From the NCBI RefSeq assembly GCF_003172875.1, contig NZ_QGKM01000005.1, forward strand, positions 179,087 to 243,086: DNA of 64,000 nt, given 5' to 3'. How positions within the stretch are numbered: the stretch's first letter is position 1; the number at the start of each line of letters is the position of its first letter. The position numbers and the translations under genes were made by a program. This DNA is from Leucothrix pacifica. Lineage in GTDB: Bacteria; Pseudomonadota; Gammaproteobacteria; Thiotrichales; Thiotrichaceae. Below the pieces are notes generated by a model. The model saw only the letters and a list, made by a program, of their open reading frames with translations. It was not told the origin of the DNA and did no database searches. Below are positions 42,267-43,722 of this stretch, one piece after another.

Positions 42267-42650
42267 ATGACTGAAATAAAACAATACGACATCCGTGTTC
42301 ACGTAAAGACGGAATATCTACCCTCAGAGTCTGATGAAGACAATGACAGGTTTGTCTTTGCCTATACGATTACGGTCGAAAATCATGGTTCTGAACCAGC
42401 AAAGCTTTTGTCTAGGCATTGGATAATTACCGATGCGGAGAATCGGGTTCAGGAGGTCAAAGGCAAAGGCGTTATCGGTGAGCAGCCGCACCTGAAAGAA
42501 GGTGAGTCTTTTAGTTATACCAGTGGCACGATGATTGAAACTAAGGTGGGTTCAATGCAGGGAACTTACCAAATGATTGCGGATGATGGCCACACATTTA
42601 ATGCCGAAATCAAACCATTCACATTAGCAATTCCGGGTATCCTTCACTGA
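42267..42650 (+). CDS. apaG: ApaG protein
   Basis: The 127-residue single-domain Ig-like protein matches ApaG, long linked to Co2+/Mg2+ resistance and still without a defined mechanism. Hallmarks are FAYTITVENHGSEPAKLLSRHWIITDA, the GEQPHLKEGESFSYTSG block (GxGVxGxxP) and GTYQM. It is usually in an operon with ksgA and apaH, but here they lie 41 kb upstream and 15 kb downstream. It starts 24 bp from divergent trmO. Confidence 0.95.
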   Translation: MTEIKQYDIRVHVKTEYLPSESDEDNDRFVFAYTITVENHGSEPAKLLSRHWIITDAENRVQEVKGKGVIGEQPHLKEGESFSYTSGTMIETKVGSMQGTYQMIADDGHTFNAEIKPFTLAIPGILH

Positions 42651-42663
42651 GAACTTACTATCC

Positions 42664-42696
42664 CAAAGAAAAGAGGGGACATCCGAAGATGCCCCC
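42664..42696 (-). terminator. Orphan minus-strand terminator with UUCG tetraloop
   Basis: On the minus strand, GGGGGCATC-TTCG-GATGTCCCC forms a 9-bp stem (one G-T pair) capped by the very stable UUCG loop and followed by TCTTTTCTTT. On the plus strand no T-run follows, so it does not serve apaG. No minus-strand gene lies upstream for more than 6 kb. A short CCCC-CTGG-GGGG hairpin just before it would compete with the stem. Confidence 0.85.
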
Positions 42697-42930
42697 CAGG
42701 GGGATTGCAGACATCAAATCCATATGAGTATCCACAAGCTTGACAGGCTAGCGGTGTCGCAACACTAGCCACGTCCGCAGAATAGTTGACCAAGGGCCGT
42801 TCTTCTAGGGGTAAACGGAGCAACGGCACTAATTCAGAGACAGAGCCATTCGTCTATTGGTACTGGTCAAAAGTCGACCGACAGCATAAGCTCAGAGTAC
42901 ATACGACTCTGGTTTAATCCAGACAATAAT
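42664..42930 (-). ncRNA. Candidate structured small RNA (minus strand)
   Basis: The 370-bp gap between apaG and the transglycosylase gene has no credible coding frame but ends, read on the minus strand, in a strong terminator. Upstream on that strand are several local hairpins: TCTGG/CCAGA near 42920, AGAGT/ACTCT near 42900, GCCGTT/AACGGC at about 42797-42828, and GGCTAG/CTAGCC at about 42745-42769. A longer pairing (TTGACCA with TGGTCAA, about 42870 with 42787) encloses some of them. A TATAAG element at 42936-42941 could be the -10, giving an RNA of about 265 nt, but its -35 is poor. It does not show the signature motifs of RNase P RNA, tmRNA or SRP RNA that I know. The 5' end is a guess. 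Confidence 0.42.
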
Positions 42931-43020
42931 AAAAACTTATATAGGAAGTTTGCACTTCTACGAACTCAACAGCCCCCTGCTATTCTGTGGCTAACCAGAG
43001 TGCGAACGTGTCAGTGACTC
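42697..43020. other. Gene-free spacer holding the candidate RNA and the promoter of the next gene
   Basis: The part nearest 43020 (about 42945-43020) must contain the promoter and leader of the lytic transglycosylase gene on the plus strand. No Shine-Dalgarno sequence is obvious before its ATG. The rest is the candidate minus-strand RNA. Confidence 0.5.
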
Positions 43021-43722
43021 ATGAAATTATCTCTCCCTTTTTTATCGGGTCTGTTTGGACTGGTTTTCTGTAATATTTACTTAACAAGCACTGTCAATGC
43101 AGATGTCTATGCATATCATGGCGCTAATGGTGAGCGAATCCTGACGGACAAGCGAATACATAATAAACATTATCGTTTGGTCAAAACCTACAAAACGCGT
43201 AGCAAGTCAAAGCCAGCCAAAAAGAAGGCTGTGACTAAACCAAAGCTTGCTAAGACCACAAAAAAGAGCGCTACCTCAAAAGCAAATGTTTTCCAATGTG
43301 GCAACACCGCTTTCATTTCAAAGCAACAAAAGGCTTACAAGAATATCATCCGGTCTTATGCTGCCAAGTACGGTGTCGAAGAAGCGTTGATTTATTCCGT
43401 AGTGAAGCAGGAGTCATGCTTTAATGAAAAGGCTTTATCGCGTGCTGGCGCTATCGGCCTCATGCAATTGATGCCTGCTACCGCTTCCTACCTGAAGATT
43501 AAGAACCCATGGAATCCGGAACAAAATATCCATGGCGGCGTGATGTACTTATCCCGCATGCTAAAGCGCTTTAAGGGCAACAAAAAGTATGCGTTAGCAG
43601 CCTACAATGCAGGCCCCGGAAAGGTTGAACGTTATGGCGGCATCCCTCCTTACAGAGAAACGCAACATTACGTGAAGAAAATTATGGCCGATTACACGCG
43701 CATGAAGAGTATGGGGCTTTAA
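43021..43722 (+). CDS. Lytic transglycosylase (SLT domain) with N-terminal DUF4124-like segment
   Basis: The 233-residue protein has a signal peptide (ending near TVNADV), a short segment resembling DUF4124 (VYAYHGANGERILTDKR), a Lys/Ala-rich basic linker and a C-terminal goose-type lysozyme/SLT domain from about residue 115. The catalytic glutamate is in VVKQESCFNEKALS, followed by GAIGLMQLMPATA and AYNAGPGKVERY. It cleaves peptidoglycan glycan strands with formation of 1,6-anhydroMurNAc. A hairpin overlaps the stop codon (43710-43735) but lacks a T-run. Confidence 0.92.
   Translation: MKLSLPFLSGLFGLVFCNIYLTSTVNADVYAYHGANGERILTDKRIHNKHYRLVKTYKTRSKSKPAKKKAVTKPKLAKTTKKSATSKANVFQCGNTAFISKQQKAYKNIIRSYAAKYGVEEALIYSVVKQESCFNEKALSRAGAIGLMQLMPATASYLKIKNPWNPEQNIHGGVMYLSRMLKRFKGNKKYALAAYNAGPGKVERYGGIPPYRETQHYVKKIMADYTRMKSMGL

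Follow-up and report, generated by a model that had tools for sequence, protein, structure and literature searches.

The window, i.e. the whole stretch of 64,000 nucleotides analysed here, contains a spacer flanked by two plus-strand genes that we take to be apaG and a lytic transglycosylase gene, slt; these names, and that of trmO, come from the earlier reader and not from a family search. On the minus strand of the spacer, beside apaG, lies a stand-alone, conserved small RNA (sRNA) gene that, judging by comparison among relatives, is almost certainly real. The features of the locus are listed below; g1, g3 and so on denote genera of the family, g1 being that of the window.

42267-42650, plus strand: apaG; the RNA tail ends at 42664, 13 nt short of its stop
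43021-43722, plus strand: lytic transglycosylase gene (slt), on the other side of the spacer
42817-42840, minus strand: 24-bp upstream box TCTCTGAATTAGTGCCGTTGCTCC, supported by a matrix scan on held-out g3
42779-42784, minus strand: putative -10 element TATTCT, a TANNNT at a fixed distance from the box
42664-42772, minus strand: predicted sRNA of about 109 nt, its 5' end placed from the -10 element; fold z -3.27
42746-42770, minus strand: hairpin H1 at the predicted 5' end, from the fold; its loop varies between genera and is C-rich in g3 and g5
42705-42737, minus strand: hairpin H2, the conserved core, with a covarying outer stem
42719-42723, minus strand: AUGGA in the H2 loop (ANGGA, a CsrA/RsmE-type motif), in invariant alignment columns
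42674-42697, minus strand: terminator hairpin H3 of 10 pairs with a UUCG loop (TTCG in the DNA)
42664-42673, minus strand: U-rich terminator tail CTTTTCTTTG, directly after H3

Comparative evidence bears out the original prediction of a minus-strand sRNA gene ending at a UUCG-capped terminator, while the gene appears to be shorter than had been proposed. From promoter to terminator it would occupy about 42840-42664 of the minus strand. The earlier interval, 42664-42935, is too long because the transcript probably starts near 42772, and the bases above about 42785 seem to be mainly promoter and slt upstream DNA, outside the transcript. As for the hairpins placed in the region of about 265 bases, the minus strand of the 272-nt interval indeed folds more stably than its shuffles (z -2.57), whereas folding of the plus-strand spacer is no better than that of its shuffles (z -0.75). 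The predicted 109-nt RNA of the window forms three hairpins with a z of -3.27, and its counterparts in 19 members range from 80 to 151 nt. The z calculated for each member (mean -0.87, n=37) comes from folds that truncate the last bases of H2, and is an unfair test either way.

The terminator was described correctly as to its TTCG loop, its T-rich tail and its restriction to the minus strand, no T-run following the H3 hairpin on the plus strand; its stem, given as 9 pairs, has 10. Terminator-like sites in this stretch are near the chance number (5, versus 3.0 ± 1.5 in shuffles), and therefore the case for an sRNA rests on conservation. By a scripted search, 30 of the 37 genomes that carry H2 have, after it, a hairpin followed by 4 or more T in 8; one call, in G020, is doubtful, and a longer stem in G071 was missed. 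Within g3, H2 itself leads into a T-rich stretch in G026, G020, G015 and G008. The proposal that a C-run/G-run hairpin directly before the terminator could make termination conditional gains little support. Such a hairpin is able to form, yet its predicted energy is about -6 kcal/mol where that of the terminator is -16.5 kcal/mol, and of the 30 members with a scripted terminator 6 have a predicted competitor at least as stable as -2 kcal/mol, three of them in g1 (3/5).

The absence of a minus-strand gene upstream was also confirmed, in that all minus-strand open reading frames of at least 60 aa as far as 47500 overlap longer plus-strand frames. A 61-codon minus-strand frame (42829-42644) spans the RNA and begins before its predicted start. 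We rejected a coding reading on the grounds that four g1 relatives do not preserve this frame and that the frames over H2 differ between the five g1 members. No tRNA or tmRNA was found in the window, and the apaG-slt stretch gave no match among plasmids.

When pattern searches, models and inspection of the spacers are combined, 37 of the 63 family genomes carry H2, several of the genomes without it being fragmentary; a search at the level of the order drew the same number, 63 genomes. The counts per genus are 5/7 in g1, 6/9 in g8, 5/6 in g3, 3/12 in g5, 1/1 in g4, 8/9 in g6, 9/16 in g2 and 0/3 in g7. BLASTN of the spacer against 57 genomes gives alignable matches in G002 (309 nt, E 2.3e-14) and G003 (184 nt, E 8.5e-14), both of the same genus, and patches of 26-36 nt with E below 0.001 in G006, G013, G018 and G029; slt adjoins the match in all six, and apaG does so as well in G003, G006 and G013. 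An H2 pattern with at most one mismatch was found in 18 of the 63 genomes, and the reversed pattern in 4 of them. Of the 19 sites of the H2 pattern, two lie away from the RNA, namely the one in G004 and the second one in G015.

Covariance models extend this range. Model R1, trained on 18 sequences, matches 19 of the 63 genomes and adds a copy beside apaG in G008, with no match at the named Thiotrichaceae loci L063, L064 (Leucothrix mucor) and L065. Model R2, trained on 17 sequences of g2 and g6, matches 18 of 63, namely its 17 training genomes and G002. When R2 was run with filters off on chosen loci (77 kb, E<=1), H2 was recovered in 12 of 20 member genomes of other genera, 9 of them ranking before the first of the two other matches; the copy of the window was missed. 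Searched over whole genomes, the models match once per genome, G070 alone having a second, weak match (E 0.0017). Among 369 genomes from the class, the two models give nothing convincing outside the family, and both are narrow: the 369 include three genomes of the family, of which each model recovered one. The matches in G363 (E 0.041) and G166 (E 0.0036) outside the family, and the second match in G070, were taken as chance because none of six neighbour genes lies alongside. The sRNA gene appears to be conserved within one family, Thiotrichaceae.

The gene is absent or decayed at several loci. Six g2 genomes (G007, G075, G076, G080, G081 and G082) have the spacer without the RNA gene, and a seventh, G077, holds a decayed copy in its apaG-slt spacer (loci L181, L190, L192, L196, L197, L204 and L194). 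In six g5 genomes (L039, L041, L044, L049, L050 and L051) apaG and slt are adjacent with no H2 match, so presence is patchy within g5.

The most conserved part of the RNA among the relatives is H2, which reads UUGUGGAUACUCAUAUGGAUUUGAUGUCUGCAA in the window. Conserved helices in homologous spacers, the expectation attached to the original prediction, are present, and the outer stem of H2 shows compensatory changes. In a first set of 17 distinct sequences from g1, g3, g5 and g8, 98.0% of the cells of the outer helix are paired, with two-sided changes at three of six pairs. The covariation score over the 11 pairs is 0.291 versus 0.177 ± 0.023 in shuffles (0/500 as high) and at most 0.112 when the helix is slid; 94 of 500 shuffles had at least as many pairs with two-sided change. 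There is little variation in the inner helix, whose fourth pair is non-standard in 14 of 17 and whose UCA/UGA is almost invariant, i.e. more conserved than pairing or a CsrA site requires. A second set, from g2 and g6, gives 0.178 versus 0.131 ± 0.015 (0/500; at most 0.144 when slid), its further pair types not being above shuffles. G-U pairs favour the RNA strand in the first set (22 versus 2 on the other strand), and the same test on the g2 and g6 set is not in favour (9 versus 13). By comparison, H2 is under selection for its RNA structure.

A promoter could be delineated in a similar manner. The 24-bp box is probably an activator site centred near position -55 of the start. A matrix was built from 11 members of g1 and g8, with the box of G005 misplaced in it, and its best match in held-out g3 falls 81-89 nt before H2 in 5 of 5 members, with shuffle p of 0.000, 0.077, 0.023, 0.007 and 0.000 (0.023 or lower in four of five). 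With one genus left out at a time, the box scores above all 300 shuffles in 4/5 g1 and 6/6 g8 members. No consistent place was found in g2, g4 and g6, where two g6 matches fall below 0.05 at other distances; in g5, the matrix did not pick the boxes later chosen by eye. In g1, g8 and g3, all 16 of 16 members have a TANNNT 31-32 nt downstream of the box, a count that reaches at most 7 in 2000 mononucleotide shuffles, which ignore relatedness. The same distance is kept in 3/3 g5 members, giving 19 of 19 for the four genera, with four boxes picked by eye (G005 and the three of g5); it holds as well where the gene is inverted (3/3 copies). In the window, the box (42840-42817) and TATTCT (42784-42779) therefore place the start near 42772.

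A sigma-70 scan upstream of H2 in the window detects no clear site. In g2 the same scan yields TTGAWW, TTGGTA or TTGCTT, a spacer of N16-17 and TACACT, 21-31 nt before H2, and in 7 of 9 members this arrangement ranks within the top three sites. An activator bound at the 24-bp box would switch the sRNA gene on, and the box offers a way to trace the controlling signal. As a mark of a wider regulon in the 63 genomes, the box gave 15 matches, four of which are the RNA's own box, versus 15 for the reversed pattern, hence no sign of other sites at that stringency. The box does not appear to resemble the GacA palindrome.

The loop of H2 offers a clue to function. Among 32 aligned copies, the A, A, G, G and A of A-Y-A-N-G-G-A are invariant and N is any of the four bases; since the sets of g2, g4 and g6 were first found by a pattern requiring GGA, or by eye (G070), invariance of ANGGA in these genera is partly by selection. 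Of 37 predicted folds, 30 leave GGA unpaired. The global regulator CsrA has a gene in 53 of the 63 family genomes, some of them without the RNA, and in 33 of the 37 with H2, including that of the window; it was not found in G057, G061, G065 and G069, which are 85, 94, 69 and 67% complete. G016 and G059 have a second, weaker CsrA-family match. From the loop match and the presence of CsrA in these 33 genomes, we propose a CsrA-binding sRNA. H2 would present ANGGA to CsrA, and the RNA would either compete with mRNAs for the protein or bring it to partner mRNAs recognised through H1 or a C-run. We rate the chance that H2 binds CsrA as about even. As an account of the whole, an sRNA gene of Thiotrichaceae with its own promoter, acting in trans and presenting ANGGA on H2 to CsrA, is the explanation that we favour as reasonably probable on sequence grounds.

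The geometry of the loop in the window counts against this proposal. In the literature, a high-affinity Csr/Rsm site is described as an ANGGAX hexaloop directly on a stem (PMC4005645), ANGGAN loops with a variable N are described (PMC7652899), and extra bases between hexaloop and stem lowered affinity 10-fold in work on RsmE (PMC4005645). In the window, the predicted H2 loop is 8 nt long, two additional unpaired bases separating the ANGGAX hexaloop from the stem; the predicted loops are 6 nt on a paired stem in G035 and 4 nt in G002. Each predicted RNA contains one ANGGA in 16 of 19 cases and two in 3 of 19, which argues that the RNA is not a classical sponge. PMC7652899 notes one mRNA target with a single CsrA site, and names McaS and GadY as base-pairing sRNAs that antagonise CsrA.

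A possible but clearly less probable account is that the RNA is a base-pairing, Hfq-type sRNA in which H2 binds a protein other than CsrA or base-pairs with some conserved target, the GGA loop being no CsrA site. The gene has the attributes of such an sRNA, namely a promoter (in g1, g8, g3 and g5) and a terminator with a U-tail (30/37), and Hfq is encoded in the genome of the window. C-runs of 5 to 8 are found in the H1 loops of 5/5 g3 (L145-L148, L180) and 3/3 g5 members (L142, L143, L144), and a run of five C follows H2 in 3/5 g1 members. In the window, this run forms one arm of the competing hairpin that had been proposed before the terminator. These runs may be pairing regions, as they suit pairing with G-rich ribosome-binding sites, and the C-run is unpaired in the fold of the window, though paired in one longer fold of G006. 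The excess conservation of the inner-stem UCA/UGA also fits this account, but loop and linker sequences vary between genera whereas ANGGA does not. A kissing contact between the C-rich H1 loops and GGA, an idea obtained by eye, was dropped.

CsrA binding and pairing could also be combined in a two-headed sRNA. Its single, strictly conserved ANGGA hairpin would hold the CsrA dimer by one face, while its C-rich loop or linker pairs with ribosome-binding sites, so that selected mRNAs would receive CsrA and the protein would not be sequestered. We regard this version as doubtful.

The surroundings of the gene allow a role in cis to be weighed. H2 lies beside apaG and/or slt in 36 of its 37 copies: apaG is alongside in 31, slt only is seen in the fetched stretch in five (G002, G018, G029, G057 and G067), and neither is alongside in one (G024). 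That the RNA is a cis-acting antisense RNA or a transcription attenuator for apaG, trmO or slt is suggested by this position, by its antisense orientation to apaG in 29 of the 31, by its adjoining slt upstream DNA and by the weak competitor hairpin in the three g1 members, but we consider it very unlikely. The gene is inverted as a unit in G060 and G061 relative to apaG and in G057 relative to slt, and three g3 members (G020, G031 and G015, about 1.5 kb each) show no slt match on that side; the stretches without an slt match in G008 (about 0.8 kb) and G026 (about 0.35 kb) are too short to decide. Furthermore, the RNA does not overlap the apaG reading frame (tail end 42664, stop 42650). The earlier suggestion that the RNA tunes both apaG and trmO is thus not upheld, given that 13 nt separate the end of the RNA from the apaG stop and that three relatives carry the gene inverted. 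Its being turned round in these relatives points to action in trans, and the favoured CsrA-binding sRNA would work in that way.

A known class missed by Rfam, either a diverged 6S RNA or a multi-site sponge of the CsrB/RsmZ type, would fit the GGA hairpin and the length range, but is scarcely credible. As to the original questions of a covariance match and of 6S RNA, no Rfam family reached its cut-off, whether the window was searched at the gathering threshold or 42400-43300 and the equivalent DNA of seven relatives at a lax one; the lax search yielded weak eukaryotic or archaeal hits below the cut-off. The 6S gene is elsewhere in the same genome (sole RF00013 match on contig C113, E 1.8e-18), ruling out 6S identity; the single ANGGA in most of the RNAs also speaks against a multi-site sponge. 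Conservation at the DNA level only, as regulatory DNA or the terminator of another transcript and with no functional RNA, would agree with the near-chance number of terminator-like sites, but has next to no probability in view of the compensatory pair changes, the one-strand T-tails, the fixed promoter spacing and inversion as a unit.

The proposed CsrA-binding sRNA resembles CsrB, CsrC, RsmX, RsmY and RsmZ in its ANGGA stem-loop, intrinsic terminator, box before the -10 element and encoded CsrA. It differs from them in normally having one ANGGA where those have many, in lacking an Rfam match and in that CsrA binding is only predicted. Like 6S RNA it is small, structured and non-coding, unlike it in that a separate 6S gene exists in the same genome. 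It is also like McaS and GadY, as described in PMC7652899, in that a single short RNA would join a proposed CsrA site to a possible pairing region, a likeness of proposed organisation. In the open-access literature, we found no paper on a Thiothrix sRNA or CsrA, an apaG-transglycosylase intergenic sRNA or a Leucothrix sRNA, and among the matches listed for noncoding RNA and Rsm none names Thiotrichales. The locus contributes an RNA family whose promoter, structure and terminator were delimited comparatively. Should H2 bind CsrA, the family would represent Csr RNAs with normally one site each, and nature would have provided a way to ask whether an sRNA has to be a multi-site sponge in order to bind CsrA.

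On the slt side of the spacer, positions 42842-42950 of the window contain the genus-conserved blocks TGGTACTGGTCA and AATAATAAAAACTTATATAGGAAGTT (plus strand), which are perhaps the promoter and leader of slt. Similar blocks persist in G004, a genome of the same genus (69% complete) in which the slt-side DNA is kept and the sRNA body is absent.
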